Source: Nitratireductor pacificus pht-3B
GTDB taxonomy: Bacteria; Pseudomonadota; Alphaproteobacteria; Rhizobiales; Rhizobiaceae
Reading direction: 5' to 3'
Assembly: GCF_000300335.1 (NCBI RefSeq)
Contig: NZ_AMRM01000014.1
Span: 1 to 64,000, forward strand
DNA: 64,000 nt
A model generated the notes under the pieces. The model did no database searches, was not told the DNA's origin, and was given only the letters and a program-made list of their open reading frames with translations. The position numbers and the translations under genes were made by a program. Numbering within the stretch: the first letter of the stretch is position 1; each line of letters begins with the position of its first letter. Of this stretch, positions 28,369-44,104 are shown piece after piece.

Positions 28369-29031
28369 GTGAAGAGCACGCTATCTCGCCAGGATGTCGC
28401 CGAAACCCTGAAGCGCGAGCATGCCGCCGCGCGCGCCATGCGCGAGGCCCGTATGCAGCAGCCCCGCGACGAGAACGCACCGCCTCCCCAGACACTGGAT
28501 TTCCGCACCTCGGAACTGCACCGCACGCAATATCTGTCGATCGGACCGCGCATGGGCCGGTTCCTCTACAACAGCGCCCGCGCCATCGGCGCACGCACCA
28601 TCGTGGAGTTCGGAACATCCTTCGGCATATCCACCCTGTATCTGGCAGCGGCGGCCGCGGATACCGGCGGCAGGGTGAGCGGGTCCGAGTTCCACCCGAG
28701 CAAGGCCGAGAAAGCGCGCGCCAACCTGGCCGATGCCGGACTGTCCGCGCAGGCGGACATCCGCATCGGCGATGCGATGGAAACGCTGAGCACCGTCGAA
28801 GGGCCGATCGATCTTCTGTTCCTCGACGGCGCGAAAGACCTCTATCTGGAGGTCCTGAAGATGCTCGAGGACAGGCTACGGCCGGGCGCGCTGGTCATCG
28901 CGGACAATGCCGACCATCTGCCGGAGAACGAGGGCTTCCTGCACCATGTCGGGGATGACAGCGATCGCTACGTGACCACGCTGATCGGTTTCCACAAGGG
29001 CCTGGTGAGCCAGAGCCTCGTGCTTTCATGA
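28369..29031 (+). CDS. COMT-like metal-dependent O-methyltransferase
   Basis: 220 residues. The SAM-binding segment IVEFGTSFGISTLYLA is near residue 78, and GSEFHPSKAEKAR follows. The late part aligns with catechol O-methyltransferase: FLDGAKDLY (D153, K156) corresponds to the metal ligand and catalytic lysine, and VIADN (D179, N180) to the other two metal ligands. The start is GTG at 28369 with AAGGA seven bases upstream. It follows the HmuV-like gene by 16 bp and so belongs to the iron operon. A role in methylating a catechol siderophore or its breakdown product is possible but unproven. Confidence 0.8.
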   Translation: MKSTLSRQDVAETLKREHAAARAMREARMQQPRDENAPPPQTLDFRTSELHRTQYLSIGPRMGRFLYNSARAIGARTIVEFGTSFGISTLYLAAAAADTGGRVSGSEFHPSKAEKARANLADAGLSAQADIRIGDAMETLSTVEGPIDLLFLDGAKDLYLEVLKMLEDRLRPGALVIADNADHLPENEGFLHHVGDDSDRYVTTLIGFHKGLVSQSLVLS

Positions 29032-29052
29032 ACCGCGACAAGGAGTGATGCG

Positions 29053-29799
29053 ATGAGCGAAGCCGCCAGGACGATGGGCAGCAAACGACCGGACATGCCG
29101 GTCTGGGAACTCTCCGTGGTCGAGGCGTTCGACGTTACGCCGCGCATGCGCAGGGTGGTGTTCGAGGGCGAGCTGGGCGCCATGGCCTACAGGCCCGGCC
29201 AGGCCCTGGTGCTGGCCATGCCACTGCCCGAAGGCGGAACGGGGCGGCGTGACTACACGATCCGCGAACTGGACAGGTCCTTGGGACGTCTTTCCATCGA
29301 CTTCGTGCTGCACGGGGAAACGCCGGCGCCAAGCTGGGCCCGGCGCGCGAAAGCGGGAGACACGCTCCTGGCGCGGGGGCCGCGCGGCCGCACCGTCTTC
29401 AACCCGGAAGCGGACTGGCACCTCTTCTGCGGCGACGAGACCTGCCTTCCGGCCATCCTCCACATCCTGGAGACCGTCGACTCCGGAACGAAGATCCATG
29501 CCTTCATCGAGGTCGAGGGGCCTGAAGACCATCAGCCGGTTCCGCCCGCCTTTGCATCCTCCGTCACATGGGTCCACAGGGACGGACAGCAGTCCGGGCC
29601 GAGCAGCCTGCTTCTCGAGAGGTTGACGGCCTTCACCTTGCCGGAAGGACGCGGCCACGCCTATCTGATCGGCGAAACGGGCAATGTGCGGGCGCAGCGC
29701 CATCACCTGGTGGCACGCGGTCTTTCGAAGGAACAGATCTCATCGGAGGGTTACTGGCGCCCGGGGCGTATCGGAGGACACGACCACGTCGATGACTGA
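29053..29799 (+). CDS. Siderophore-interacting protein (FAD-dependent ferric reductase)
   Basis: 248 residues of the SIP/ViuB family. The FAD-binding motif is RDYTIRELD (about residues 63-71), followed by the HGETPAPSWARRAKAGDTLLARGPRG region, the NAD(P)H-side motif GDETCLPAILHIL and a C-terminus ending SSEGYWRPGR. Such enzymes release iron from imported ferric siderophores by reduction in the cytoplasm. It is the last gene of the iron-uptake cluster, 21 bp after the methyltransferase gene, and completes a receptor-to-cytoplasm pathway. Confidence 0.9.
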   Translation: MSEAARTMGSKRPDMPVWELSVVEAFDVTPRMRRVVFEGELGAMAYRPGQALVLAMPLPEGGTGRRDYTIRELDRSLGRLSIDFVLHGETPAPSWARRAKAGDTLLARGPRGRTVFNPEADWHLFCGDETCLPAILHILETVDSGTKIHAFIEVEGPEDHQPVPPAFASSVTWVHRDGQQSGPSSLLLERLTAFTLPEGRGHAYLIGETGNVRAQRHHLVARGLSKEQISSEGYWRPGRIGGHDHVDD

Positions 29800-30009
29800 G
29801 CACACTGCCTGCGTGGCATTCGTTCGGCCGGGGCCGGCGGCGGCAGGATCGTTCAGCCCTCCGTCCATGTGAAGTTGCCGCGACAAGCCTGGGAACATAG
29901 TATCAAGCGGCAGGTGGGACTTCCACGCACTCCTGGAGCGTGCGAATAAGTACAATCTCGGGATCCAATCTACCCGCCGTCACGACACGTTTGCGTCTTT
30001 GAGAGTTCA

Positions 30010-30855
30010 ATGCCGGTCAATCTGGAAAACGATCTGTTGCGAACCTTTGTCGCGATCGCGGAGGAGGGGGGGTTTTCGGCCGCTGCCCGCCGGGTCTTTC
30101 GTACCCAGTCCGCCGTCAGCCAGCAGATGAAGCGTTTGGAGGAAGCACTCGGCCAGCAACTCTTCGAGAAGGTTGGCCGTCAGCGCAGGCTCAACGAGGC
30201 AGGACAGAACCTGCTCACCTACGCGCGCCAGATTGTTGCACTGAACGATCAGGCGGTGATGACCGTCAATTCCTCCCAGCAGAGCGGCGAGGTACGCATC
30301 GGCGCTCCGCATGATATCGCCGATTCCATCCTCCCGCGTTTTCTCTCCACCTTCGCCCGCTCCAATCCGCGCGTTCACGTGATGCTGACGGTCGATCGCA
30401 GCCCGAACCTGATGCCGCTGCTGGAAGATGGCCGGCTCGACATGACGTTGACGACCCGCCATTCCGAACGTTTTCAGGGCCGCCTCCTGCGTACTTCGCC
30501 CACTGTCTGGATCGCCGCGGCGTCCTTCGAGCTCGACCGGCGGCAGCCCGTGCCTCTCGTCCTGGCGGACGAGCCGTCGATCTTTCGCCGCATGGCGCTG
30601 AACGCGCTCGACCAGCGGGGCGTACCATATATCGAGCGCTATACCTGCCCCAGTCTTTCGGGCATCCACGTGGCCCTCAACGCCGGGCTCGGCGTAACGG
30701 CGCGCACGCCGGAGATGCTGAAGCCCGATCTCAAAGTGCTCGGTGAAAGGGATGGGCTTCCGCCGCTGCCGGACGTCAATTTCTACATCTACCGCAGCAA
30801 TGTGACGCCTTCACAGGCGGCGAATGCGCTTTTCGAGCAGATTTGCGCCGGCTGA
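30010..30855 (+). CDS. LysR-family transcriptional regulator
   Basis: 281 residues with an N-terminal winged helix (LLRTFVAIAEEGGFSAAARRV and TQSAVSQQMKRLEEALGQQLFEK, residues 8-55), a linker helix, and a LysR substrate domain that begins GEVRIGAPHDIADSILPRFLSTF. It is slightly shorter than the usual 290-310 residues. It reads in the same direction as the downstream organosulfur genes with a 160-bp gap and is the likely activator of them (inference). Confidence 0.9.
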   Translation: MPVNLENDLLRTFVAIAEEGGFSAAARRVFRTQSAVSQQMKRLEEALGQQLFEKVGRQRRLNEAGQNLLTYARQIVALNDQAVMTVNSSQQSGEVRIGAPHDIADSILPRFLSTFARSNPRVHVMLTVDRSPNLMPLLEDGRLDMTLTTRHSERFQGRLLRTSPTVWIAAASFELDRRQPVPLVLADEPSIFRRMALNALDQRGVPYIERYTCPSLSGIHVALNAGLGVTARTPEMLKPDLKVLGERDGLPPLPDVNFYIYRSNVTPSQAANALFEQICAG

Positions 30856-30994
30856 TAGATAAGTATTTTATCCGTTTTAGATTGCATTTTGCTCGCAAAC
30901 ATTAGGATCACTAATGATTTTCGCGAGAGTTTGAATTGGTGCTGCCTTCAAACACGCTGCTAGCCTGCTTCGTAAGCCCTGAGGGAGGGCAGTG

Positions 30995-31021
30995 ATGAAC
31001 GACGAGGCTGGAAGACGATGA
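30995..31021 (+). CDS. Eight-residue leader peptide overlapping the dioxygenase start
   Basis: ATG at 30995 has a very strong GGGAGGG eight bases upstream and encodes MNDEAGRR followed by TGA at 31019-31021. That stop overlaps the ATG of the dioxygenase gene (ATGA at 31018-31021). This could be a translational-coupling leader. The composition does not suggest classic amino-acid attenuation, and the ORF may be chance. Confidence 0.35.
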   Translation: MNDEAGRR

Positions 31022-31590
31022 CCCGCGAAGAAGAAGTGGAAGCTGTTCTGGCAAAGGTGCGCGTGGCCATGACCGGCGGGCCGAACCGTGCAGCGCTGGA
31101 GGACGCCAAGAACGCATTGATCGGGCTGGCCGCCAAGCGCGATCTGTGGAGCGAGGCCGAATACCCGCGCCCGGACGAGGGCGAACGCCAGGCCCGCTAT
31201 CTTATCGCGCAGGACGATCCCCAGGGACTGACCCTCTATCTCAATGTCATGTTGCCGGGAAAGAAGATCCCGCCGCACAATCACACTACATGGGCCTGCA
31301 TCGCGGCGGTGGAAGGTGTGGAACACAACACGCTGTACGAGCGGCTCGACAACGGCAGCGTTCCGGGCCGCGCCGAAATCCGCGTCGACCGTGTCGTGTC
31401 CGTTGAGCCGGGCGCGGGGGTCGCGATGATGCCGGACGACGTGCATCACGTGGAGATTCAGGGCGAACAGCCCATTCGCCACCTTCATATGTACGGACGC
31501 CCCCTCGAAACCCTGACCGAACGCCTTGTTTTCGACCCGGAAGCCGGCACGACCAAGATCATGTCCGTCGGCGTGAAGACGCGGCGCTGA
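31018..31590 (+). CDS. Cysteine-dioxygenase-family thiol dioxygenase (cupin)
   Basis: 190 residues. The iron ligands of cysteine dioxygenase are present as H87 and H89 in PPHNHTTWAC and H143 in DVHHVE. The motif LHMYGRP places Y159 where the catalytic tyrosine sits. R60 (QARYL) aligns with the arginine that binds the substrate carboxylate, and C94 aligns with the cysteine that cross-links to tyrosine in animal enzymes. Family members turn cysteine, 3-mercaptopropionate or mercaptosuccinate into sulfinates or oxidised products. Next to rhodanese and a C-S lyase, it probably oxidises a small thiol acid in the cytoplasm; which one is unknown. Confidence 0.85.
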   Translation: MTREEEVEAVLAKVRVAMTGGPNRAALEDAKNALIGLAAKRDLWSEAEYPRPDEGERQARYLIAQDDPQGLTLYLNVMLPGKKIPPHNHTTWACIAAVEGVEHNTLYERLDNGSVPGRAEIRVDRVVSVEPGAGVAMMPDDVHHVEIQGEQPIRHLHMYGRPLETLTERLVFDPEAGTTKIMSVGVKTRR

Positions 31591-31611
31591 AGCAGAGGCA
31601 GTCCAGAAGCA

Positions 31612-33243
31612 ATGACGTCAGCAATGTCGCCTCAAGAGGTGAAGGCCGCCCTTTCGGACGCAGCCGAGATCGCCTTCCTCGACGTGCGCGAGCACGGCCA
31701 ATATGGCGAAGGGCATCCCCTTTTCGTGGTCAACTGCCCTTTCAGCATTCTGGAGGCCGAGGCACCCCGTCTCGTTCCCAACCGGCACGTGCGCACGGTT
31801 CTGCTGGACGATGGCGACGGGGTTGCCGAGCGCGCGGCGCATGAACTCGAAGCCCTTGGTTATACGTCTGTCTTTGTCCTTCAGGGCGGCGCTCCCGCAT
31901 GGGAAGCCGCCGGCTTTGGCGTATTCAAGGGTGTTAATGTCCCCTCGAAGGCTTATGGCGAGATGGTGGAGCACGATATGGGCACCCCCTCGCTCTCTGC
32001 CGAGGAGTTGAACGCCATGATCGGCGCGGGCGAGGACATGGTCATCCTCGACGGCCGCAGCCCGGCCGAATTCGCCAAGATGAACATTCCCACCGCACGC
32101 TCATGCCCGAATGCCGAACTGGGGCTGCGCATCGGCGAACTGGTGAAGAAGCCGCAGACGCGCATCGTCATCAACTGCGCCGGCCGCACGCGGTCCATCA
32201 TCGGCGCCCAGACATTGCGGAACCTCGGCTTCACCAACCCGATCCATGCCTTGCGGAATGGCTCACAGGGCTGGCAGCTCGCTGGCCTGACCCTGCAATA
32301 CGGTTCGCAGCCTTTGCCGCTTCCCGCGCCGGCGGACGAAACGCTCGCCGATGTCGCCGCCCGTCGCGCCGCATTCATCGATCTCAACGGCCTGCCGCTT
32401 CTGAGTCATAACACACTTCAGACCTGGCTTGCGGACGACACGCGCACCACATTTCTTCTCGACGTCCGCAGTGCGGAAGAGTTTGCGGACGGCACGATTG
32501 CCGGCGCCGCCCATGCGCCGGGCGGTCAGCTCGTCCAGGCGACCGATCAGTGGATCGGCGTGCGCGGCGCCCGGATCGTGCTGGCCGACAATCGCGACAT
32601 TCGCGCGGCAACCACCGCTTTCTGGCTCCGCCGCATGGGACATGACGCCGTCATTCTCGATGTCGATACACGCGGGTACGCCGTGTCCGCTCCGGCCGAG
32701 CGCGACTGGATGGCGGGGCTTGCCACGATGTCTCCGCGCGAGGCCGCGACGGGGCTGTCGGAGGGAGCGCAATTGATCGACGTTTCTTCCGGCAAGGCCT
32801 ACCGTGAAGGCCACATCAAGGGCGCCGTCTGGGCCATACGCCCACGGCTCGCCGCGCTCGCGCTCGATCCGGCCCGTCCGCTGATCGTTGCAGGCCAGGA
32901 ACCGTCCACACTTCACCTTGCGGCCGGCGATCTGACCGACATGGGACATGCGGATCTGCACGTCCTTCCCGGCAACCCGGCGCAATGGCGCGACGCGGGG
33001 CTTGCCATCGAGGCGACGCCGGATGTGCCTTCCGATGCCGACATGATTGATTTCCTGTTTTTCGTTCATGACAGGCATGATGGAAGTCTGGAGGCTGCGC
33101 GCCGCTACCTCGCATGGGAAACGGGGCTGATAGACCAGATGGATGCGCAGGAAAAAGGCGTGTTCACGCGGGGTCCCGCGCCTGTGGTCGAACACGGCGC
33201 TGCAGCCATTGCGCCCGCAAGAACCTTGCAGAAGGTGAGGTAG
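31612..33243 (+). CDS. Four-domain rhodanese-like sulfurtransferase
   Basis: 543 residues built from four rhodanese-type repeats of about 120-130 residues, beginning near residues 5, 127, 265 and 375. Only the second has an active-site cysteine: C189 in NCAGRTRS. At the matching place the first has LLDDGDG, the third LADNRDI and the fourth VAGQEPS, so three domains look inactive. It follows the thiol dioxygenase by 21 bp. A likely task is to carry persulfide sulfur or to bind other enzymes of the pathway (inference). No signal peptide is present. Confidence 0.85.
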   Translation: MTSAMSPQEVKAALSDAAEIAFLDVREHGQYGEGHPLFVVNCPFSILEAEAPRLVPNRHVRTVLLDDGDGVAERAAHELEALGYTSVFVLQGGAPAWEAAGFGVFKGVNVPSKAYGEMVEHDMGTPSLSAEELNAMIGAGEDMVILDGRSPAEFAKMNIPTARSCPNAELGLRIGELVKKPQTRIVINCAGRTRSIIGAQTLRNLGFTNPIHALRNGSQGWQLAGLTLQYGSQPLPLPAPADETLADVAARRAAFIDLNGLPLLSHNTLQTWLADDTRTTFLLDVRSAEEFADGTIAGAAHAPGGQLVQATDQWIGVRGARIVLADNRDIRAATTAFWLRRMGHDAVILDVDTRGYAVSAPAERDWMAGLATMSPREAATGLSEGAQLIDVSSGKAYREGHIKGAVWAIRPRLAALALDPARPLIVAGQEPSTLHLAAGDLTDMGHADLHVLPGNPAQWRDAGLAIEATPDVPSDADMIDFLFFVHDRHDGSLEAARRYLAWETGLIDQMDAQEKGVFTRGPAPVVEHGAAAIAPARTLQKVR

Positions 33244-33247
33244 CCCC

Positions 33248-34405
33248 ATGAAGAAGGACACAAAGATCGCAAGGCTGGGACGGCCCCATGCAAAGGATCG
33301 ACCGGTTGCCGTGAACCCGGAGATCGTTCGCGCATCGACCATCCTGTTCCCTGACATGGACAGCTACGATGCGGCGGGCAAGGAGAAATACACAACGCTG
33401 CGCTATGGCCGTCATGGCACCCAGACGGCCTTCGCCCTCGCGGATGCGGTGGCTGAGCTGGAAGGCGGTTATCGCGCGATCGTCATGCCATCCGGGCTCG
33501 CCGCCGTTTCGGCCGCACTCCTCACCTATGCCCGGCCGGGCTCGCATCTTCTGATGACGGACAACGTCTACGGCCCGACCCGCAACCTGTGCGAATCCTA
33601 TCTGCGCACCATGGGGGTCGACGTCGAGTATTTCGCGCCGCGCGTCGGTGCGGCAATTGCCGATCTGATCCGCCCTGAAACAGTGGCGATCTACTGCGAG
33701 AGCCCAGGCTCCGGAACGTTCGAGCTGCAGGATATCCCGGCCATCGCATCCGTGGCCGCACCGCGCGGCATTCCGGTCATGAACGACAACACCTGGGCCA
33801 CGCCCTTGCTGTTCCCATCCTTCGAGAAGGGCGTTGATGTTTCCGTCCACGCGGCCACCAAATACATCGTCGGCCATTCCGATGCGATGCTTGGCCTGAT
33901 CGTCTGCTCCGAGGCGACCTGGGGCCCGGTGCGCAACATGGTCGGCCTTCTCGGCTATTCGACCGCACCCGACGATTGCTATCTGGCCTTGCGCGGATTG
34001 CGCACCATGGGCCTGCGACTAGAGCGGCACCAGCAGAACGCGCTGAAGATCGCCCGATGGCTCGAGGGGCGTCCGGAAGTGGCTGCGGTTCATTATCCAG
34101 CACTGGAAAGCCATCCCGACAACGCGCTTTGGAAGCGCGACTTCACGGGCGCTTCGGGCCTCTTCGCCTTCAGGCTGAAGTCGAAGGATAACGAGGCCGC
34201 GCGCCGCTTTGCCGACGGGCTCGACTATTTCGGTATCGGGTCGAGCTGGGGAGGCTTCGAAAGCCTGATCACGATCCCGCATCCCACACGCAACCATGAA
34301 GTCTCCGCCGATGATGGAGTTCTGGTGCGCCTGCATGTGGGGCTCGAGGATCCCGATGACTTGATCGCGGATCTGGCGGCGGGCCTGACCGCCCAGTTCA
34401 GCTAG
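33248..34405 (+). CDS. PLP-dependent trans-sulfuration enzyme (cystathionine beta-lyase/MetC type)
   Basis: 385 residues of the Cys/Met metabolism PLP family. The PLP lysine is K205 in VHAATKYIVGHSD, the ring-binding aspartate D180 in VMNDNTWATP, and the neighbouring-subunit phosphate ligands are in LRYGRHGTQT (Y53, R55). Also clear are MPSGLAAVSAAL and SWGGFESLI near the end. Such enzymes cleave the C-S bond of cystathionine and other S-substituted cysteines, releasing a thiol, pyruvate and ammonia. GGTGAGG lies upstream of the ATG, five bases after the rhodanese stop. In this setting it is a candidate C-S lyase for an imported cysteine conjugate. Confidence 0.9.
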   Translation: MKKDTKIARLGRPHAKDRPVAVNPEIVRASTILFPDMDSYDAAGKEKYTTLRYGRHGTQTAFALADAVAELEGGYRAIVMPSGLAAVSAALLTYARPGSHLLMTDNVYGPTRNLCESYLRTMGVDVEYFAPRVGAAIADLIRPETVAIYCESPGSGTFELQDIPAIASVAAPRGIPVMNDNTWATPLLFPSFEKGVDVSVHAATKYIVGHSDAMLGLIVCSEATWGPVRNMVGLLGYSTAPDDCYLALRGLRTMGLRLERHQQNALKIARWLEGRPEVAAVHYPALESHPDNALWKRDFTGASGLFAFRLKSKDNEAARRFADGLDYFGIGSSWGGFESLITIPHPTRNHEVSADDGVLVRLHVGLEDPDDLIADLAAGLTAQFS

Positions 34406-34421
34406 AAGGGGGGAGAGAACC

Positions 34422-35459
34422 ATGAGCAAAGAGCGCATTTCGACCGAGGCAGGTTTTGCCGAAGCCTTTGCCACTGCGGCACCGGGAAGCCTGACCGAGG
34501 GGCGCATCCGTGTTGGAAGTTTCGCCTCCGGTGCCGAAATCGTCCTTCCTTTCCTCATCCTGAAAGGGGCGAAGCCCGGCCCCTGCCTGTGGATTTCCGG
34601 ACAGGTTCACGGCAACGAGATCAACGGCATCTGGGCAGCGCTCGACTTCATGGAAGGTCTTGATCCAGCTGAACTTTCGGGCTCGGTGGTTCTCAGCTCG
34701 ACGGCCAATCCGCTGGCCCTCGACGCCCGTCGCAAGACCGCGCCGCAGGATGAACAGGATCTCGACCAGACCTTTCCGGGCAATGCGAACGGGCTTGTCA
34801 GTGACCAGATGTCGGCGGCGCTTTTTGCGGCTGCAGCCGATTGCGCGGATGTGCTGATCTCGATGCATACCATGAACAACCTGTTCTATTCGGACCCCTA
34901 TGCGGTCTACAAGCTGCATCCCGACAGCGGCATCGACGAAGCGAAACTGTTCTCGATGATCCGTCATTTTCACCCGGTAGTCGCTTGTCGCATGAATGTT
35001 GCGCCCGGCGCGGGCGAACTTCCCGGCAACATCCCCGGAGCGCTCGATTACCAGATGCTGGCCCGCGGCAAGCCGGCCTTCATGATCGAGCTGGGGTCCG
35101 GCAGCGAAACGGACGAAGGCTGCGTCGCGCTCGGCGTGGCGGGATTGCATGGCGTGGCTGCAGAAATGGGCATGATCGCCGCGCCGCAGCGCAAGCCTGC
35201 CGAAAAGCTCCGCCGGGTCGCCCGACGCACCCATGTGATGACGCGCGAGGGCGGCTTGTTCCGCACCGCCAATCGTCCAGCCATGAAGGTGGAGGCCAAC
35301 AGGCCTCTCGGCACCATCTGCAGCATCACCGGACGTCCCATGGCCGAGCCGGCCATGGCCCAGGATGTGCTGATCATCGGCATTCGCAAGGATCCGGTGG
35401 TTCACACTGGGGACCGTATCGCCTTCGTGGCGCTTGAATGGACGGACGTGTCCGTCTGA
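34422..35459 (+). CDS. Succinylglutamate desuccinylase/aspartoacylase-family deacylase
   Basis: 345 residues of the M14-like AstE/AspA zinc family. The zinc ligands H63 and E66 lie in SGQVHGNEINGIW and the third, H149, in LISMHTMNN. The substrate loop DLDQTFPGNANG and the catalytic-acid region FMIELGSGSE follow. These enzymes remove an acyl group from an N-acyl amino acid in the cytoplasm. A GGGAGAG precedes the ATG, 16 bp after the lyase gene. Deacylation of an N-acyl-S-substituted cysteine before C-S cleavage would fit the neighbourhood (inference). Confidence 0.85.
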   Translation: MSKERISTEAGFAEAFATAAPGSLTEGRIRVGSFASGAEIVLPFLILKGAKPGPCLWISGQVHGNEINGIWAALDFMEGLDPAELSGSVVLSSTANPLALDARRKTAPQDEQDLDQTFPGNANGLVSDQMSAALFAAAADCADVLISMHTMNNLFYSDPYAVYKLHPDSGIDEAKLFSMIRHFHPVVACRMNVAPGAGELPGNIPGALDYQMLARGKPAFMIELGSGSETDEGCVALGVAGLHGVAAEMGMIAAPQRKPAEKLRRVARRTHVMTREGGLFRTANRPAMKVEANRPLGTICSITGRPMAEPAMAQDVLIIGIRKDPVVHTGDRIAFVALEWTDVSV

Positions 35460-35526
35460 CCGCAATGCGGCAACCACAAGAACCGGAAAACGGCGACATG
35501 ACAAATCGAACCTCAGGGGAAAAACG

Positions 35527-36507
35527 ATGAGAAAGATCAAAGTCCTGACAGCCGCCTTTGGCGTGATTTCCATGGCCATGTTTGGCACGGCGGCCGAGGC
35601 CCAGAACTATCCGGATCGTCCGGTTACCATGATTGTGCCGTGGGCACCGGGGGGGGCCGCCGACATCATCGCGCGGCTCGTGGCAGAACCGATGGGCAAA
35701 GCGCTCGGTCAGCCTGTCGTCATCGAGAACCGGCCCGGGGCCGGCGGCACCGTGGGTTCCGCCGTGGTCGCCAAGGCCGATCCGGATGGCTACACCATCC
35801 TGATGGGCAATGTGGCCAGCGAAGCCATTGCGCCGGCCTTTTATGCAGACACCATTCCTTACAAGGTGCTTGAGGATTTCGCCCCGGTCACCCAGCTCAT
35901 CCAGCAGCCGAGCGTTCTTCTGGTTTCCAAGGATTTCGAGTTCGACAACGTGAAGGACCTGATGGCTTTTGCCAAGGAAAACCCTGGTGAACTCTATGCG
36001 ACGCCGGGCGTGGGCAACTCACCCTACCTCACTTTCGAGCTGATCAAGGACAATTACGACGTCGACATGGAGAACGTGCCCTATGACAGCGGCGCGGAAG
36101 TGAACAATGCCTTGAATGCGGGCGACGTCCAGATTGCCATCAACAACCTGCCGGAAGCCATCAAGGCGATTCAGGCCGGGATCGCCAAGCCGGTCGCGGT
36201 GACGGCTGCCGAGCGCAACCCGCTCCTGCCGGATGTGCCGACATTCGTCGAGTCGGGAGGCGACAAGATCGTTGCCATTTCCTGGCAGGGCATCTTTGCG
36301 CCTGCGGGCACGCCCGATGCCATCGTCCAGAAGCTCTACGAGGCGACCGCCGCAGCCCTGAAGGATGAGAACGTCGTTCAGCGCAACAAGGAGCTCGGCT
36401 CGGTGCCGGTCGGCTCGACGCCGGAGGAATTCAAGGCCTTCGTCGCTTCCGAGATCGAGAACTGGGCCTACATGGTCAAGCTTGCCGGCGCCAGCGCGCC
36501 CAAGTGA
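35527..36507 (+). CDS. tctC: TTT-family substrate-binding protein (TctC/Bug type)
   Basis: 326 residues with a Sec signal peptide (MRKIKVLTAAFGV through AAEAQ). The mature start NYPDRPVTMIVPWAPGGAADIIARL and the stretch VIENRPGAGGTVGS are hallmarks of the Bug family of tripartite tricarboxylate transporters. It is periplasmic and hands di- or tricarboxylate-like solutes to TctA/TctB. ATG 35527 has AGGGGA upstream; an earlier in-frame start would bury the signal peptide. Confidence 0.92.
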   Translation: MRKIKVLTAAFGVISMAMFGTAAEAQNYPDRPVTMIVPWAPGGAADIIARLVAEPMGKALGQPVVIENRPGAGGTVGSAVVAKADPDGYTILMGNVASEAIAPAFYADTIPYKVLEDFAPVTQLIQQPSVLLVSKDFEFDNVKDLMAFAKENPGELYATPGVGNSPYLTFELIKDNYDVDMENVPYDSGAEVNNALNAGDVQIAINNLPEAIKAIQAGIAKPVAVTAAERNPLLPDVPTFVESGGDKIVAISWQGIFAPAGTPDAIVQKLYEATAAALKDENVVQRNKELGSVPVGSTPEEFKAFVASEIENWAYMVKLAGASAPK

Positions 36508-36675
36508 TGTCTCGATGCTGTCGCGGAAGCCGGTCGCAGTCTGGCCGGCCTCCGCATGCCCCGCCCGCTGGAAGCGCGGCGGACGGTCCATCCCGGCGGG
36601 TTTGAAAGCACCCGACTGCGGCGGGACCGGAAAGGCTCCGGAATGCGCGGGATCTTCCGAAAAGGACAAAGCGAC

Positions 36676-37458
36676 ATGGAACCCTTCAAGCCACTGCCTG
36701 CAACGCCGGTTCGGCTAGGCTTCGTCATTCCCGAGAGGAACGTCGCCTGCGAGACCGAGTTCCCGCAGTTCCTGCCCGATGGCGTGACGGCCCATTTCTC
36801 GCGCCTTCCACGAGAAGGGGCAGCGCTCACGCAGGAATCGCTCATTCGCATGATGGACAGCGTCGAGCATCAGTCGCGCCTTCTGGGCGGCATCGACGCC
36901 CGCATCATCCTCTATGCGTGCACATCCGGGAGTTTCCTGGGCGCCGACGATGCTCTCGACACCATTGCGGACAGGATCGGCGCCGCTTCGGGCGTTCCCG
37001 CAGTCACAACCACACGGGCCGTGCTCGATGCGCTGGCGGCGCTTCAAGCCAGGACGGTGTTCCTGATCAGCCCGTATCCCGACGACATTCATGCCGCCGA
37101 GATCGCATTCCTTGAAAAGGCGGGGCATCCGGTGCCCGGCAACGCCACTTTCGGCTGCGCGAGCTCCGAGATGATCCGCGGTATCAATTCGCGTGACGTG
37201 GAAGCGCTTGCGCTCGGCCATCGTGCTGCGATCAGGGAATGTGACGCCGTTTTCCTGAGCTGCACGAACCTGCGTTCCATGGACCGCATCGCGGCGCTGG
37301 AGGCAGATCTTGCGCGGCCTGTCTTCTCGTCCAATTCGGCCTCGCTCTGGCGCGCCATGCGCGGGGCGGGCCTCACGCCGCGCGATATCGGCGCCGGCCG
37401 CCTGTTCCGCCTCGATCTGGCCGGTGTCGATCCCTCGGCCCGGGTTCGTGGTGCCTAG
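36676..37458 (+). CDS. Maleate isomerase/Asp-Glu racemase-family enzyme
   Basis: 260 residues. The two active-site cysteines of maleate isomerases are visible: C82 in LYACTSGS and C196 in LSCTNLRS, with the conserved PERNVACETE near residue 19 supplying N22. Related enzymes are arylmalonate decarboxylase and Asp/Glu racemases. The gene stands between tctC and tctB, splitting the transporter genes, which suggests action on the transported acid, for example maleate to fumarate (inference). AAAGGA lies ten bases before the chosen ATG. Confidence 0.83.
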   Translation: MEPFKPLPATPVRLGFVIPERNVACETEFPQFLPDGVTAHFSRLPREGAALTQESLIRMMDSVEHQSRLLGGIDARIILYACTSGSFLGADDALDTIADRIGAASGVPAVTTTRAVLDALAALQARTVFLISPYPDDIHAAEIAFLEKAGHPVPGNATFGCASSEMIRGINSRDVEALALGHRAAIRECDAVFLSCTNLRSMDRIAALEADLARPVFSSNSASLWRAMRGAGLTPRDIGAGRLFRLDLAGVDPSARVRGA

Positions 37459-37554
37459 GGTGTTGCCGGCTAAACGGAAAGTCCGCATCAGAGGTCGGGC
37501 GATGGCCTAAGGTTTCGAAACAGCAAAATGCCCTGGAGTTCAATGGGGATAAAA

Positions 37555-38013
37555 ATGAGAAATGGAAAGCAAATCAGGGGCGCGCAATACGCCGACATTG
37601 CAATCGCCCTCGTTCTTCTGGCGGTCGGTGTCGGCTTCACGATCGTCGCCTATGATCATGGCCTCGGCTCCGTGCGACGCATCGGCGCCGGCGCTATGCC
37701 GTTCCTGATCGGCTGCGCGCTTTGCCTTTGCAGCCTCATCTGTCTTGTCGGCGCGCTGCGAAACCGGATCGAGGTCGATGTCTCGCCGCCATTTCCGGTT
37801 GCCTTGGTGCTCATCGCCGTCGTGGCGTGGGCACTGCTGGTCGAACCGTTCGGGCTTGTCCCGGCCACCATTGTCCTGATGCTGATCGGGACATTCGCCT
37901 ATGGACCGATACGCTGGATTTCAACGAGCATCGTGATTGCGGCCATGTGCGTGGGATGCGTGGCGCTCTTCATCTACGGCTTCCGCCTTCCTTTCACGAT
38001 TTTCGGGGGCTGA
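37555..38013 (+). CDS. tctB: TTT-family small membrane subunit (TctB)
   Basis: About 152 residues with four membrane helices: ADIAIALVLLAVGVGFTIVA, a second around MPFLIGCALCLCSLICLVGAL, and a pair after residue 75. This is the size and pattern of TctB. ATG 37555 has GGGGA five bases upstream; ATG 37543 with GGAG upstream is an equal alternative. The next gene starts four bases after its stop. Confidence 0.85.
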   Translation: MRNGKQIRGAQYADIAIALVLLAVGVGFTIVAYDHGLGSVRRIGAGAMPFLIGCALCLCSLICLVGALRNRIEVDVSPPFPVALVLIAVVAWALLVEPFGLVPATIVLMLIGTFAYGPIRWISTSIVIAAMCVGCVALFIYGFRLPFTIFGG

Positions 38014-38017
38014 GACC

Positions 38018-39541
38018 ATGGACCTTTTCAACCAGATCCTCGGCGGTTTCGCCACGGCGACCACACCCCACAACATCCTGTTCTGCTTCATCGGCGTCAC
38101 GATCGGCACATTCGTCGGCGTTCTGCCGGGTCTCGGGCCGCTGGCGGCAATCGCGCTGTGTTTGCCGATCACCTTCTACCTCGACCCCACGACCGCCATG
38201 ATCATGCTGGCGGGCATCTTCTATGGCGCGCAATATGGCAGTTCCACCGCCTCGATCCTGCTCAACATACCAGGCACGGCCAGCGCTGCCGTCACCTGCC
38301 TCGACGGTTACCCGCTGACCCAGAAGGGGCAGGCAGGCGTGGCGCTGATGATCACCACGCTGACCTCCTTTGCCGGCGGCACCATGGCCATCGTGCTCGT
38401 CATGGGGCTTGCGCCGGTCATCTCCGCCTTCGCGATGAATTTCTCGTCGGCAGAATATTTCTCCGTCATGCTGCTCGGTCTCGTGGCGGCTTCCACCCTG
38501 TCTATCGGCTCGCCCATCAAGGGCATGACGATGGTGGTCGCGGGGCTTGCCCTCTCCATGATCGGCACGGACAAGTACACGGGCGAATTCCGCTTCACCG
38601 GCGGCATCCTCGATCTGGCGGAGGGCGTCAGTCTCGTGGCGCTTTCGATCGGCCTGTTCGGCGTCGCGGAAATCCTGTCGAGTTTCGCGGGCAAAGGCCC
38701 TGTGCTTCTCAACGCGAGTTCGGTGCGCCTGCGCGACATGCTGCCGACCAGGACGCAGCTCAAACAGGCGATCCTGCCCACATTTCGGGGCATGGGCATC
38801 GGTTCTGTCATCGGCGCGATGCCGGGCGCAGGGCCGGCCCTGGCTTCCTATCTTGCCTATGTGGCCGAGACGCAGGTTTCGAAGAATCCGGAAAAGTTCG
38901 GCAAGGGCGCCATCGAGGGCATTGCCGCACCGGAGGCCGCCAACAACGCCTCCGTGCAGACGGCCTTCATTCCCACGCTCACGCTCGGCGTGCCGGGCGA
39001 CGTGGTCATGGCGGTCTTGATCGGTGCGCTGATGATCCACGGCATCACGCCGGGTCCGGATTTCATCAGCTCCCACGGCGACATCTTCTGGGGGCTGGCA
39101 GCCAGCTTCTGGATCGGCAACGTTCTGCTTCTCGTGCTCAACATTCCCCTGATCGGCATCTGGGTCCGCATGCTGGCCATTCCGCCACGCATCCTCTACC
39201 CGATCATGCTCGTTTTTGTCTGCATCGGCGTCTACAGCATCCGCAACAGCATCTTCGATGTCTACATAATGCTCGTCTTCGGCGTCGTGGGTTATGTGCT
39301 GGCGCTGTTTCGGTATCCAGCGCCGCCCCTCCTGCTCGGCTTCGTGCTGGGACCGCTGATGGAGCAGCATCTGCGCCGCGCCTTGCTTCTGGGGAGAGGG
39401 GACCCGATGACGTTCCTCTATCATCCGATCAGCGCGATCTTTCTGGCGATCTGCCTGGTGCTTATTCTGCGTTCGCTGCCGCTGGGTCCCATCGTGCAGA
39501 AACTGCGCGCGCGCCAGACCCACCGGGTGGACATCGAGTAG
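38018..39541 (+). CDS. tctA: TTT-family large membrane subunit (TctA)
   Basis: 507 residues with about twelve helices. The TctA signatures GVLPGLGPLAAIALCLPITF, GIFYGAQYGSSTASILLNIPGTASA, GAMPGAGPALASYLAY and PEAANNASVQTAFIPTLTLGVPG are all present. It forms the transport channel with TctB and uses the ion gradient. ATG 38018 starts right after tctB. Confidence 0.94.
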   Translation: MDLFNQILGGFATATTPHNILFCFIGVTIGTFVGVLPGLGPLAAIALCLPITFYLDPTTAMIMLAGIFYGAQYGSSTASILLNIPGTASAAVTCLDGYPLTQKGQAGVALMITTLTSFAGGTMAIVLVMGLAPVISAFAMNFSSAEYFSVMLLGLVAASTLSIGSPIKGMTMVVAGLALSMIGTDKYTGEFRFTGGILDLAEGVSLVALSIGLFGVAEILSSFAGKGPVLLNASSVRLRDMLPTRTQLKQAILPTFRGMGIGSVIGAMPGAGPALASYLAYVAETQVSKNPEKFGKGAIEGIAAPEAANNASVQTAFIPTLTLGVPGDVVMAVLIGALMIHGITPGPDFISSHGDIFWGLAASFWIGNVLLLVLNIPLIGIWVRMLAIPPRILYPIMLVFVCIGVYSIRNSIFDVYIMLVFGVVGYVLALFRYPAPPLLLGFVLGPLMEQHLRRALLLGRGDPMTFLYHPISAIFLAICLVLILRSLPLGPIVQKLRARQTHRVDIE

Positions 39542-39545
39542 AACG

Positions 39546-41867
39546 ATGGATGACACCACCTACAAGCAGCACAGCAGTCATTGGGGCGCGTTCAGCGCGC
39601 GGATGAATGGCGGAAGGCTGGACATCCGCCCCTTCGAGGCCGATCCCGACCCGTCGCCTTTGCTTGCCAACATTCCGGCGTCGCTCGATCACCCCGCCCG
39701 CATCCGAAAGCCGCTGATCCGCCGCGGCTGGCTGGAAGATGGCCCGGGCCCGGACGGACGTCGCGGCTCCGATGCATTCGTCGAGGTCGAGTGGGAAGAA
39801 GCCCTGCAAAGGACGGCACAGGAGTTGCGACGCCTGGGTGCTTCGCCCTCCCTGTCGGACGACGGTCCCCTGCCTGGCGCGCGTGTGTTCGGGGGGTCCT
39901 ACGGCTGGTCCTCGGCCGGCCGCTTCCATCATGCGCAAAGCCAGGTGCACCGCTTTCTGAACAGTGTTTTCGGCGGCTACGTTGCCTCCGTAGACACCTA
40001 TTCGTCCGGTGCAGGCAGCGTGATCCTGTCGCTGGTTCTAGGCAATGCGATCAAGTTGAACCGCGATCATCCCTATCTGCGCGAGCTTGCACAGGATACG
40101 GAACTTCTGATCTGCTTCGGCGGTCTTCCGCTGCGCAATCTGGCGGTGAGCGCGGGCGGCAGTTCCAGGCACTTGGGCAAGAGTGTTCTGCACAAGGCCG
40201 CTGCTCGCGGCTGCAACTTCGTCTCGGTCAGCCCCATCGCCGACGATTTCAGCGATCTGCCGGGCCTCACGCGCATTGCTCCGCGCCCGGCCACCGACAC
40301 CGCATTGATGCTTGGCATGGCCTACAGGCTGCATGAGACGGGCCTGGTCGATCGCGCCTATCTGGAGCGCTACACGACGGGTTATCCCGCGTTCGAGGCC
40401 TATCTGACGGGCAAATCGGATGGTGTCGCTAAAACGCCAGAATGGGCCGAGAGCATCTGCGGCGTCCCGTCCTCCGAGATCGCCGCTCTGGCCGAGCGGG
40501 CCGCGAAGAGCCGGACGCTGATCAACGTCACGTATTCGTTGCAGCGCGCGGAGAACGGCGAACAGCCCGTCTGGATGGCGCTGACGCTTGCCTGCATGCT
40601 GGGGCAGGGCGGTTTGCCCGGTGCGGGTTTCTGCTACGGACTGGGCTCCATTGGCAATATCGGCAAGGAAGCGCTGGCCGTGCCGTTGCCCACCATGCCA
40701 CAGGGGCATAACCGGGTTGACGATTTCATTCCCGTGGCCGGCATCTCGGATCTTCTGTTGAAACCGGGCGAGCCCTACACCTACAAGGGCGAAGTGCGCC
40801 GCTATGCCAATATCCGGCTCGTCTACTGGGCGGGCGGCAATCCCTTTCATCACCACCAGGATCTCTCGCGTTTGAAGGAGGCATTCTCCCGGCCGGAGAC
40901 GATCATCCTGCACGACAGCGTCTTTACCGCATCGGCGCGCCACGCCGACATTGTGTTTCCCGCAACCATCACGGCCGAACGGAGCGATATCGGCGCGGGC
41001 GGCAACGACCCGTATCTCTTTGCGATGCAGAGGTTTGCGGAACCTTTCGGCGAAGTGCGCGATGATTACTCAATCTTCGCGGATCTGGCCGGCAGGCTCG
41101 GGTGCAGCGAGATCTTCACAGAGGGTCGCGACACGGACGGCTGGTTGAAAGCCATGTATGAGCCGACGCGCGCAGCTCTCGAAAAGCTCGGACACGATGC
41201 CCCGTCCTTCGAGGACTTCATGCAAAACGGGCGGATTGAACTGCCTGTGCGCGACGCCCCCGGCACGATGGTGCGCTTTCATCGGGACCCGTCGGGTGCC
41301 CCGCTCGATACGCCAAGCGGCAAGATTGAGCTGTTTTCGGAAACCGTTGCGGGCGCTGGCCTGCCAGGGCATGCGGCATGGCTCGCACCGGCCGAATGGC
41401 TGGGTGCGCCGATGGCCGAACGCCATCCGTTTCAACTCGTCTCCAACCAGCCGGCCACCCGCCTCCACAGCCAGCTCGATTTCGGAAGCACCAGCATGGC
41501 TGCAAAGATGAAAGGACGCGAGGTTGCGAGGCTCAACGGGGACGATGCCGCGCGGCTCGGAATTTGTGAGGGAGATGTGATCCGGCTCCACAACGAACGC
41601 GGCTCGGTTCTGGCAGCGGCACGTCCCTCTGACGCGGTCTTGCCTGGCGTGGTGCAGCTCTCGACCGGTGCCTGGTATGCCCCGGAGGAACTGCCGGGAA
41701 CAGGGCTCACCTGTGTCAACGGCAATCCCAACGCGGTGACGTCAGATGCCGGAGCCTCCGCCTTGAGCCAAGGTTGCGCAGGCCAATTGTGCCTCGTGTC
41801 GCTGGAGAAACTGCAGGGCGCAGCCCCGCAGGTCTGGCCACACTCCGCCCCATTTCACGAACGGTGA
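39546..41867 (+). CDS. DMSO-reductase-family molybdopterin oxidoreductase (BisC-like S/N-oxide reductase)
   Basis: 773 residues. It has the family pattern FGGSYGWSSAGRFHHAQSQ near residue 116, and S153 in VDTYSSGAG is where the serine ligand of molybdenum lies in DMSO and biotin sulfoxide reductases. There is no N-terminal iron-sulfur cysteine motif and no twin-arginine signal, so it is a cytoplasmic BisC-type enzyme with bis-MGD only. The C-terminal domain includes the cofactor-binding QPATRLHSQLDFG. It may reduce a sulfoxide of the imported compound (inference). It starts five bases after tctA. Confidence 0.87.
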   Translation: MDDTTYKQHSSHWGAFSARMNGGRLDIRPFEADPDPSPLLANIPASLDHPARIRKPLIRRGWLEDGPGPDGRRGSDAFVEVEWEEALQRTAQELRRLGASPSLSDDGPLPGARVFGGSYGWSSAGRFHHAQSQVHRFLNSVFGGYVASVDTYSSGAGSVILSLVLGNAIKLNRDHPYLRELAQDTELLICFGGLPLRNLAVSAGGSSRHLGKSVLHKAAARGCNFVSVSPIADDFSDLPGLTRIAPRPATDTALMLGMAYRLHETGLVDRAYLERYTTGYPAFEAYLTGKSDGVAKTPEWAESICGVPSSEIAALAERAAKSRTLINVTYSLQRAENGEQPVWMALTLACMLGQGGLPGAGFCYGLGSIGNIGKEALAVPLPTMPQGHNRVDDFIPVAGISDLLLKPGEPYTYKGEVRRYANIRLVYWAGGNPFHHHQDLSRLKEAFSRPETIILHDSVFTASARHADIVFPATITAERSDIGAGGNDPYLFAMQRFAEPFGEVRDDYSIFADLAGRLGCSEIFTEGRDTDGWLKAMYEPTRAALEKLGHDAPSFEDFMQNGRIELPVRDAPGTMVRFHRDPSGAPLDTPSGKIELFSETVAGAGLPGHAAWLAPAEWLGAPMAERHPFQLVSNQPATRLHSQLDFGSTSMAAKMKGREVARLNGDDAARLGICEGDVIRLHNERGSVLAAARPSDAVLPGVVQLSTGAWYAPEELPGTGLTCVNGNPNAVTSDAGASALSQGCAGQLCLVSLEKLQGAAPQVWPHSAPFHER

Positions 41868-41960
41868 AATCTGCCCCCGACCGGTGCTGTCGGATTGTTC
41901 ATTGGGGAAATGAACGTGCGGGCGCGAGAAGATCGCGCCTGGAGAAACGAGACAAGGACG

Positions 41961-42965
41961 ATGGTTCGCATGACACATCAGGGCAAGATGCGCGTTATTG
42001 ATGTTCCGGTACCGGGCGGACCGGAGGCACTTACCCTGGTCTCGAGACCGGTGCCTTCCGCTCAGCGCGGAGATGTCCTCATCAAGGTGGAGGCTGCCGG
42101 TGTCAATCGCGCCGATCTCAAGCAGCGGGCCGGCGACTATCCGATGCCATCGGACGCACCTACGGTGCCCGGTCTGGAAGTTGCCGGAACTGTTCTGGCG
42201 ACAGGGGCGGAGGTTGATGAGTTCGATGTCGGTGACAGGGTCTGCGCGCTTCTCATAGGTGGCGGCTACGCCGAATATGTGGTCGCTCCTGCCGTGCAGT
42301 GCCTGCCCATCCCCGAAAGTCTGAGTTTCGTCGAAGCAGCCGGCTTGCCCGAGACAGTTTTTACCACATGGGCAGCCTTGTTCGAGCAGGCGGGACTTCA
42401 GCCTGGTGAGACCGTGTTGATCCACGGAGGTGCAAGCGGAATCGGGACGACGGCCATCCAGCTTGCGGCCGCGTTCGGAGCAAAACCCCTCGCCACCGCA
42501 GGAACGGCCGAGAAGGTGGCACTGTGCAAGGATATCGGTGCCGTTCTGGCGATCAACTATCGTCAGGACGATTTTGTGGAAAGGGTTCTGGAGTTTACAG
42601 CCGGACACGGCGTTGATGTGGTTCTCGACATGGTCGGTGGAAGCTATTCCCAGCGCAACCTCGAGAGCCTTGCCCTGCACGGGCGCATCTGCTTCATCGC
42701 CGGCGACGAAGCTCCGGAGGCTGTGTTCAACATCCGTCAGATTATGCTCAAGCGCGCGGTGATTACCGGCACAACACTCCGCCACCGCACACCGAAGGAA
42801 AAGGGACGACTGCGCAGCATCATCAAGGAGCGTGTTTGGCCGCTGATCTCCCAGGGGAGTTTCAAACCGGTGATTGGGGCAGAGTTTCCCATGGCTTCGG
42901 TCGCCGATGCCCATGCGGCCCTGGAGTCCGGTCGACACGCCGGCAAGATAGTGTTGCGTATCTGA
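41961..42965 (+). CDS. NAD(P)H:quinone oxidoreductase, zinc-free MDR (PIG3/QOR type)
   Basis: 334 residues of the medium-chain dehydrogenase superfamily. The N-terminal GroES-like domain has RVIDVPVPGGPEALTL and AAGVNRADLKQRAGDYP. The nucleotide-binding motif is VLIHGGASGIGTTAIQLAAAFGA. The structural-zinc cysteines are missing, as in quinone oxidoreductases. The start is uncertain among ATG 41961, 41970 and 41988; 41961 has AAGGA close by. It follows the molybdoenzyme by about 95 bp and could handle an enone or quinone product (inference). Confidence 0.85.
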   Translation: MVRMTHQGKMRVIDVPVPGGPEALTLVSRPVPSAQRGDVLIKVEAAGVNRADLKQRAGDYPMPSDAPTVPGLEVAGTVLATGAEVDEFDVGDRVCALLIGGGYAEYVVAPAVQCLPIPESLSFVEAAGLPETVFTTWAALFEQAGLQPGETVLIHGGASGIGTTAIQLAAAFGAKPLATAGTAEKVALCKDIGAVLAINYRQDDFVERVLEFTAGHGVDVVLDMVGGSYSQRNLESLALHGRICFIAGDEAPEAVFNIRQIMLKRAVITGTTLRHRTPKEKGRLRSIIKERVWPLISQGSFKPVIGAEFPMASVADAHAALESGRHAGKIVLRI

Positions 42966-43425
42966 CCGCCGAAGCAAGACGGAGAGGCATCCGGAAACGA
43001 CTGATCATCCCGACCGTCAAAGGGTGTGAGGGGAGATGATGTCTCGGCTACCTTTCCGAATGCTCTGCGCTGAAACCGGGCCCTGCAACGCCCGAGCACC
43101 CTGACAGCAACGGCAAGGCGTCCGGTCGCGGATCAGCTGACATCGCCAGCGTACAGCAGATCCTCAGGAACTCTCTTTCGCTGGAGGGGATCGTTGCTCA
43201 GGCGGGGTGAAAGCGATCCTCTTCATTCGTCTCATTGTCGTCGAACATTCGGTTCCCTGAGCGGCGACACGTCTCTCGCGCGGATCGCCCTTCCTGTCAC
43301 GATAGCTATGTTCGGCGTGTCGGCGCCCCTGCTTCGGGTGGTGCGCAATGCCGTCGTTGATGTGACCGGCGCCCTCTATTTCATCTTTGCGAGAATACGG
43401 ACGGACCCGCGACGCGCGTGGGGTT
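42966..43425. other. Intergenic stretch without a recognisable gene
   Basis: About 460 bp between the quinone reductase and a small membrane-protein gene read from the other strand. A short open frame from 43194 shows no known motif and mainly mirrors the membrane-protein gene further on. No repeat or promoter stands out. Confidence 0.5.
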
Positions 43426-43827
43426 TCACCCCCGCTTCTGGACGTGAAAAACCGATTGATGCCAGGCTATCAGCGAGGCTGGCACCGAGATCAGCCCGTA
43501 TTGCCATGATATGTCCGCCCAGCCGCTCTCGAAATCGAAGAGGAACATTTCCAGCCAGATCGCAACGCATTGCACGGCGACAAAGAAAAGAAACAGCGAG
43601 GGCAGGGGCTTCAGTTTCAACGCCCCGACAACCGCGAGCAGCACTGCCCCTCCCGCCAGAGCGACGACAATCGCCACCGCGAAAGTCAGGCTGGCGATCG
43701 CAACCAGTTCCAGCCCGATGGAGCGGGCGGCCACCGCCACCAGCGCCGCATGAGCGAACGCGGCAAAACCTGCCGTTATGATCGCTGCGGGGAAAAGGCG
43801 GCTGTAGTACGGTCTGATCATGTCCAT
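43426..43827 (-). CDS. Small membrane protein of unknown function
   Basis: 133 residues with about four hydrophobic helices: residues 12-35, 40-66, 74-95 and 105-120. A short charged tail HVQKRG follows. I do not recognise a family. The steady third-position GC and helical pattern favour a real gene. It lies between the organosulfur island and tRNA-Ser and is read toward the island. No ribosome-binding site is strong. Confidence 0.5.
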   Translation of the reverse strand: MDMIRPYYSRLFPAAIITAGFAAFAHAALVAVAARSIGLELVAIASLTFAVAIVVALAGGAVLLAVVGALKLKPLPSLFLFFVAVQCVAIWLEMFLFDFESGWADISWQYGLISVPASLIAWHQSVFHVQKRG

Positions 43828-44104
43828 GCGTTTCAGTGCTCCCGATGTTCGGAAGCTAGCGCCGCAACGGCGGTCGATCTACCCAGAATTTGCGGTGGCC
43901 CCCGGTCTGGCTGCTCTGATTGGCAGGATCGGAGGCTGCTTCTGGTGTGAATTCACAGGAACGCCGGACCGTATCGACTGGTGGCAAATGGCGTCGAGTT
44001 CGGGACGAAGTTCGAAGTATACGGCAAGAGCGCGACTGCGCGACTGACCGACAGGCGGCCCCGCGGAGGCGTTGAACGAAGTGAAACTGCCGTGAACTGA
44101 CCAA

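Follow-up and report, generated by a model that had tools for sequence, protein, structure and literature searches.

A LysR-led accessory gene island of Nitratireductor pacificus pht-3B with a possible role in the catabolism of succinated cysteine

The island and its putative operator

The window analysed here is a 64,000-nucleotide stretch of Nitratireductor pacificus pht-3B (contig NZ_AMRM01000014.1, positions 1 to 64,000; host genome of 4.47 Mb). Between positions 30010 and 42965 it carries a gene for a LysR-type regulator followed by ten further genes, all eleven on the + strand in the list of open reading frames and translations of the window. The Pfam and NCBIfam profile matches agree with the expected family for each gene from the regulator to the molybdoenzyme, which upholds the gene order and families given by a first-pass annotation of this DNA. 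We propose, with a probability of about one in two, that this island is an accessory operon under LysR control for the catabolism of S-(2-succino)cysteine (2SC, or succinated cysteine), which arises by Michael addition of cysteine to fumarate, and of its masked forms.

The regulator gene (30010–30855; Pfam LysR_substrate and HTH_1) precedes those of a relative of mercaptosuccinate dioxygenase (Msdo), hereafter DO (31018–31590), a four-domain rhodanese (RHOD; 31612–33243; four rhodanese stretches in Pfam), a MetC-type C–S β-lyase of the pyridoxal phosphate (PLP) type (METC; 33248–34405) and an AspA/AstE/DoeB-like deacylase of a distinct subfamily (DEAC; 34422–35459; Pfam AstE_AspA_cat, 2e-19). 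They are followed by TctC, the solute-binding protein of a tripartite tricarboxylate transporter (TTT; 35527–36507; Pfam TctC, 3e-64, query from 35521), a two-cysteine enzyme of the Asp/Glu-racemase superfamily resembling EutA, maleate isomerase and arylmalonate decarboxylase (AMDase) (36676–37458; Pfam Amdase, 6e-27), the small membrane subunit TctB (37528–38013; Pfam TctB, 1e-14), the large membrane subunit TctA (38018–39541; Pfam TctA, 1e-151), a molybdoenzyme of the BisC/dimethyl sulfoxide (DMSO) reductase type (BISC; 39546–41867) and a PIG3-type quinone oxidoreductase (41895–42965; TIGR02824, 443 bits, query from 41961). TctC, TctB and TctA all score above the Pfam cut-offs and form a complete TTT set. 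With the preferred starts of TctC (35527), the AMDase-like gene (36676) and TctA (38018), whose first possible starts are 35434, 36556 and 37937, the intergenic gaps from DO to BISC measure 21, 4, 16, 67, 168, 69, 4 and 4 bp; five of the eight are shorter than 25 bp, in line with the earlier description of most gaps.

In Nitratireductor indicus C115 (locus L004), the nearest named relative (93% identity on the deacylase), the genes from LysR to BISC are colinear with those of the window at 89–97% identity. L004, a stretch that extends 3.5 kb beyond the molybdoenzyme, contains nothing that matches the quinone oxidoreductase, which we therefore place probably outside the unit, to which the first-pass annotation had assigned it. 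DEAC was found at E 1e-60 or better in the genome of the window alone among the ten genus genomes searched, a set in which N. indicus was not recognisable. The flanks of the island (24001–30009 and 41869–50000) gave no blastn match to L004, in a comparison that had no positive control. Since DEAC is scarce in the genus and the flanks are unmatched, we regard the island as accessory and probably located at different sites in the two Nitratireductor species.

A 6 bp inverted repeat, CATTAG-N5-CTAATG, lies in the gap between LysR and DO (30900–30916). The same site occurs there without mismatch in L004, L016, L017, L036 and L038, and with one or two mismatches beside LysR in L011, in L012 (in the gap between DEAC and LysR) and in L083–L085; it was thus found in 11 of the 23 loci of the clade of Msdo-like enzymes defined below as clade A, and with up to two mismatches in none of the other 12 nor in any of the 18 loci of clade B. 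A lone match with up to two mismatches in 64 kb is unremarkable (0.44 expected; 36 of 100 shuffles held at least one), so the case for the operator rests on its position and its recurrence across genera. With up to one mismatch, the genome has the site at 30900–30916 only and a backwards control pattern occurs twice. We consider this repeat to be a putative LysR-type operator, common to Nitratireductor and Cupriavidus.

The dioxygenase and the C–S lyase

In the PDB, DO best matches chain 8vni, a mercaptosuccinate dioxygenase (188 residues aligned, 59% identity, 236 bits); the remaining four chains that it matches, 3-mercaptopropionate dioxygenases (3MDO) and cysteine dioxygenase (CDO) type I, score at most 44.4 bits, and in Pfam it stays under the cut-off (Cupin_2, 19.6 of 27.2 bits). 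Judged by this comparison, DO is a relative of mercaptosuccinate dioxygenase, so that the earlier description of a CDO-related thiol dioxygenase for cysteine or mercaptosuccinate can be narrowed to the mercaptosuccinate type. In a tree of 47 rows, a group of 21 separates (97/99), in which three rows are more distant and the other 18 make up what we call clade B (95/86). The remaining rows, including the window protein, are called clade A; the tree does not settle the branching order among them. The 8vni chain lies outside the 21-row group, where it pairs with L037 and L068, which are 90% identical to it.

The iron ligands of the HxH...H pattern (H87, H89 and H143) and two arginines, R60 and R169, are kept in the window protein and in all 23 clade A rows (22 loci and 8vni), a count that omits both fragments of L035 and the rows of about 35% identity to 8vni at L041 16777 and L070 5733 (on the clade A side) and L075 3691 (on the clade B side). 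R60 and R169 are also invariant in 18 of 18 clade B rows. As counted on the printed alignment, R60 aligns with Gln63 of Av3MDO, the position that separates Gln-type from Arg-type thiol dioxygenases, and R169 with Arg168 of Av3MDO, which holds the substrate carboxylate (PMC8050391). Other thiol dioxygenases use one of these two positions for a carboxylate; DO has arginine at both. Since both carboxylate-type arginines are kept, a dicarboxylic thiol is suggested as the substrate, R60 and R169 together being possible binders of its two carboxylates. R154, found in 23 of 23 clade A rows and replaced by leucine in 17 of 18 clade B rows, is a candidate for an additional carboxylate binder.

Several other dioxygenase genes were seen in passing. 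In the Marinobacter locus L035 (8001–8563) the Msdo gene matches in two pieces and may be broken. A third dioxygenase type, the one about 35% identical to 8vni (L041:16777, L070:5733 and L075:3691), lies on stretches that bear clade B clusters and adjoins a rhodanese of the type found in Klebsiella or in the second copy of L039. A distant thiol dioxygenase also stands with a four-domain rhodanese at L020:6360–8548 and L023:6411–8566. In Klebsiella, where the dioxygenase is 26% identical to that of the window, ABC transporter genes and an LLM-monooxygenase-like gene lie nearby, by eye; a similar annotated pair in Acinetobacter adjoins an LLM oxidoreductase. This pairing looks like a general thiol-to-sulfite module.

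METC passes the general cystathionine β-lyase model TIGR01324 (440 bits; cut-off 365.9) and fails the specific housekeeping model PRK05967 (434 bits versus 649), whereas the genome has a second, housekeeping MetC at another place (L087) that scores 720 bits against the latter and passes it. The residues Lys210, Tyr56, Trp340 and Arg372 (Escherichia coli numbering) are kept in 36 of 36 METC rows (21 of clade A and 15 of clade B), all taken from loci with a METC match (L035, L065, L073, L074 and L077 have none). Tyr338, which E. coli MetC and L087 retain, is replaced by Ser or Ala in the METC rows. With these PLP-lyase residues conserved throughout, METC is plausible as an active paralogue, and its pocket may be more open. 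An arginine at E. coli MetC position 55 was considered as a succinate binder and rejected, as it is found in only five of 21 clade A rows (window, L004, L011, L018 and L044).

Recurrence of the cluster and its additional enzymes

The neighbourhood search suggested by the first-pass annotation recovered the gene set in other genera, with varied gene orders and transporters. At E 1e-60, DEAC was detected in three of 297 genomes of the family, four of 385 of the class and one of 398 of the phylum (the own genome counted each time); at E 1e-35, DO was detected in six of 247 genomes of the family, five of 329 of the phylum and 16 of 309 of the family of genome G845. All 13 DEAC loci are tied to a DO of clade A level in the same locus or the same genome. 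A clade A DO shares the locus in nine of them; in L013–L015, from three genomes of a single genus, the DO gene belongs to another locus of the form DO–RHOD–METC–TTT (L083–L085), and in L005 a DO of 53% identity (214 bits) is found elsewhere in the genome. Since L063 and L067 were retrieved by way of the dioxygenase, the deacylases at these two loci do not test this association independently. BISC is present in ten of the 13 DEAC stretches.

The arrangements differ widely. In L011, a divergent LysR separates METC–DEAC–racemase on one side from DO–RHOD–BISC–GST–TctA–TctC, a second racemase-like gene and MmgE/PrpD on the other. L012 has DO–RHOD–METC–DEAC–LysR on one strand, with BISC and an Opp-type ABC transporter opposite. 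The Cupriavidus loci L016 and L017 have a divergent LysR and DO–RHOD–TctC–METC–DEAC–TctC–BISC, and Aminobacter L018 has metC–DO–RHOD (the METC and DO reading frames overlap), a Liv-type ABC transporter, DEAC–nitrilase-like–BISC and a BMP-type ABC transporter.

Within 10 kb of DO, the 23 clade A loci have RHOD in 23 cases, METC in 21, LysR (at least 40% identity) in 22, any TTT gene in 19, TctA in nine, DEAC in nine, BISC in seven and a polar-amino-acid ABC transporter (PAAT; at least 45%) in none. The corresponding numbers for the 18 clade B loci are 14 for RHOD, 15 for METC, two for LysR, six for any TTT gene, 16 for PAAT, and zero for TctA, DEAC and BISC. Clade B (L019, L039–L041 and L069–L082) thus mostly shows an adjacent MetC-type lyase with a PAAT ABC transporter, and belongs to the Burkholderiales where named. 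The references used were the LysR of the window and the PAAT of the clade B locus L019, each of which favours its own clade, and many loci are close kin (L036/L038, L016/L017, L083–L085, window/L004), so that these counts are not independent. Moreover, the clade A locus L044 has PAAT-like permeases and an ATPase at 29–49% identity, mostly under the 45% limit. Given this locus, the case of Advenella discussed below, the biased references and the relatedness of the loci, the pairing of TTT with clade A and of PAAT with clade B appears as a tendency and no law. The TTT loci fit an N-acylated, strongly acidic substrate and the PAAT loci a free amino acid.

H63, E66, H149 and E223 of DEAC do not vary among the 12 homologues aligned (a set that omits the split L067), nor do D115 and Q116 of its DLDQTFPG stretch, which corresponds to the DxNRxFPG-like stretch of 3cdx and 2qj8. 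Its nearest NCBIfam name is EutE/DoeB, and it reaches 64.6 of the 402.7 bits of the DoeB model TIGR02994. We propose that DEAC, as a distinct subfamily, could be an N-acyl-2SC deacylase. In L067 (3868–4302) the deacylase gene matches in two pieces and may be broken.

BISC scores 802.2 bits against the bisC_fam model TIGR00509, under its cut-off of 1017.55, and its Pfam domains, of the S/N-oxide reductase type, are over theirs. It aligns over its full length with the DMSO reductase 1eu1 and shares the Mo-site residues Tyr114, Trp116 and Ser147 with it, as counted on the printed alignment. In enzymes of the DMSO reductase type, Tyr114 favours sulfoxides over N-oxides. The GSYGW motif is present in ten of ten BISC homologues, and by eye the protein has neither a long leader nor an N-terminal Fe–S motif. 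BISC may be proposed as an S-oxide reductase for the sulfoxide form of the substrate.

The racemase-like enzyme has a cysteine at both catalytic positions in four of four aligned rows (a weak L017 match was filtered out). AMDase 3dg9 has Gly and Cys at these positions: arylmalonate decarboxylase bears a glycine in place of the first cysteine and has a single catalytic one. On the two-cysteine pattern we reject an AMDase identity, and we propose an epimerase or racemase; the nearest NCBIfam name is EutA (98.6 of 318 bits). A few kb behind the Cupriavidus cluster, L017:14274–17205 holds by eye hydantoin-racemase-like and hydantoinase-like genes and a weak racemase-superfamily match (28%), and hydantoinase/oxoprolinase genes also lie near L013 and L019.

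Of 37 aligned RHOD rows, 36 have the CxxGxR loop of domain 2 and the last has a gap there; the loops of domains 1, 3 and 4 of the window protein are without cysteine by eye. The enzyme probably handles released sulfite or sulfur. A TauE-type exporter (L039) and a PF03601 protein (L012), of the family to which YeiH-type exporters belong, adjoin DO–RHOD genes and agree with sulfite release.

A possible 2SC route and its alternatives

The core of the island has published counterparts. In Advenella mimigardefordensis DPN7, a PAAT ABC transporter is encoded next to the LysR, Msdo, MetC and rhodanese genes. Deletion mutants of Advenella that lacked msdo showed restricted growth on mercaptosuccinate, and growth was suppressed in those without lysR; the product of Msdo, sulfinosuccinate, breaks down to succinate and sulfite (PMC5373536). 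The Advenella Msdo is reported to share 60% identity with that of Variovorax paradoxus B4, and both known msdo genes cluster with metC and rhodanese (PMC5373536). As LysR (in Advenella), Msdo, MetC-type lyase and rhodanese are also those of the window (30010–34405), the claim of an undescribed pathway cannot be kept for this core. The window differs by its TTT in place of the PAAT transporter and by its deacylase, BisC and racemase-like genes, none of which is named in the Advenella and Variovorax passages of PMC5373536, which name no substrate of the lyase either.

If METC supplies the thiol of Msdo, chemical reasoning requires that β-elimination begins from S-(1,2-dicarboxyethyl)cysteine, which is 2SC. 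In the route that we propose, the TTT transporter would import the acidic compound, the BisC-like enzyme would reduce its sulfoxide form and the AspA/AstE-type enzyme would strip the N-acyl group. METC would then convert 2SC into mercaptosuccinate, pyruvate and NH3, and the two-cysteine enzyme may interconvert both configurations at the succinyl carbon. Msdo would oxidise mercaptosuccinate to sulfinosuccinate and hence yield succinate and sulfite; the latter would be removed or put to use with the help of the four-domain rhodanese. The Msdo step and the LysR requirement are published for relatives; the kinship of the dioxygenase, the co-occurrence, the operator and the transporter tendency come from the comparisons made here; and we infer the substrate of the lyase and the roles of the deacylase, the sulfoxide reductase and the racemase. 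The outline of the first-pass annotation (import by TTT of a conjugate such as S-succinyl-cysteine, deacylation, C–S cleavage and thiol oxidation) agrees with these comparisons, and the exact substrate (2SC, N-acyl-2SC or 2SC sulfoxide) is suggested by reasoning.

2SC is described as a stable product of damage to cysteine by fumarate and as a biomarker for raised-fumarate conditions. In the scm (yxe) and 2SL routes, 2SC is acetylated and then cleaved, either by a monooxygenase or by a lyase that releases fumarate, and the N-acetylcysteine is deacetylated to cysteine (PMC9706529, PMC12757645). The substrate proposed here and the deacylation step are the same, whereas the cleavage would fall on the cysteine side and give mercaptosuccinate and pyruvate. 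No 2SC acetyltransferase, ScmK monooxygenase or 2SL lyase was found among the ten window proteins scanned, the rest of the genome not being searched. The words 'mercaptosuccin' and 'dioxygenase' are absent from the main texts of these two 2SC papers, and no paper joining mercaptosuccinate or thiomalate with succinocysteine was among the matches listed for open-licence PMC papers.

Because 21 of 23 loci have METC close to Msdo and β-elimination of 2SC yields mercaptosuccinate, the Msdo clusters look like an unrecognised 2SC route. The extended form, with DEAC, BISC and importers other than PAAT, is as expected for N-acylated and sulfoxide forms. We may thus suggest, a little more tentatively than for the island itself, that the Msdo–lyase–rhodanese clusters of Alpha- and Betaproteobacteria are a third natural 2SC route, of which the extended form in the window would clear N-acylated and oxidised 2SC in both stereo-forms. 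Such a third route would explain why bacteria possess a mercaptosuccinate dioxygenase, would give Msdo a natural source of substrate by a β-lyase chemistry unlike that of the two known routes, and predicts new enzymes that act on 2SC (a β-lyase), on its S-oxide (a reductase) and on N-acyl-2SC (a deacylase), as well as a LysR sensor. Within the open-licence PMC literature, 2SC as the proposed natural substrate of the core and the extension by a putative deacylase and a putative S-oxide reductase are new.

Several observations weigh against this proposal. METC is missing near Msdo in two of the 23 clade A loci (L035 and L065), the METC sequences from Msdo loci are not monophyletic, and clade B shares the change at Tyr338. 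Clade B also combines METC and both arginines with other transporters, so that these clusters may act on substrates besides 2SC. Judging from the 60% identity reported between its Msdo and that of Variovorax, Advenella, with its PAAT transporter, probably belongs to clade A. DEAC is absent within 10 kb of DO in 14 of 23 clade A loci and BISC in 16 of 23 (in three of the genomes concerned both genes sit at a separate locus), and BISC was not seen in the stretches of three of the 13 DEAC loci (L005, L063 and L067); with these genes so often missing near DO, the masked-substrate steps would be optional. The racemase-like gene was matched at four loci only. TctA occurs in only nine of 23 clade A loci, only TctC-type binding proteins being matched in the rest of the 19 TTT loci. 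Such proteins are common, and six of the 18 clade B loci likewise carry one in the vicinity.

Among other explanations, a general scavenging of mercapturates and S-alkylcysteine sulfoxides, in which DEAC, BISC and the lyase strip many N-acetyl-S-cysteine conjugates and DO oxidises several thiols, is unlikely yet deserves attention. The DEAC–BISC pair indeed occurs with TTT, Opp, Liv plus BMP and TAXI-TRAP transporters, and Bacillus subtilis has clusters for the putative degradation of several S-alkylcysteines, in which acetylation and cleavage would be followed by deacetylation (PMC12757645); however, the tie of 13 of 13 DEAC loci to an Msdo-level DO with two carboxylate-type arginines points to one dicarboxylic thiol. 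Degradation of free mercaptosuccinate, with the lyase, DEAC and BISC as passengers or devoted to sulfur assimilation, would suit the published role of the Msdo clusters (PMC5373536) and a TTT able to import a dicarboxylate, yet it needs no C–S lyase, and the fact that such a gene accompanies Msdo at a distance of up to 10 kb in 21 of 23 loci makes it improbable in our eyes.

We give a still smaller chance to the fortuitous adjacency of an Msdo cluster and an ectoine-utilisation-like acylase/EutA-like/TTT cluster: EutE/DoeB and EutA, known from ectoine catabolism, are the best NCBIfam relatives of DEAC and of the racemase-like gene, but the scores given above are far under the cut-offs, and DEAC and Msdo co-occur across several genera and gene orders. 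An ectoine-like pathway for the island was rejected on the same scores. Finally, it is very improbable that the lyase acts on lanthionine, cystathionine or cystine and that DO oxidises cysteine or homocysteine; the lyase does pass TIGR01324, but it fails the model passed by its housekeeping paralogue, and DO is closest to Msdo and not to CDO- or 3MDO-type chains. Biotin or ergothioneine catabolism, prompted by BisC and by ureido-type genes near some relatives, was dropped, as nothing seen called for it.

To the left of the island, positions 25634–29799 encode a periplasmic binding protein, a methyltransferase and a siderophore-interacting protein, together with a permease and an ATPase recognised by eye, which make up an iron/heme uptake cluster. 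To its right lies a tRNA-Ser gene (44105–44194).

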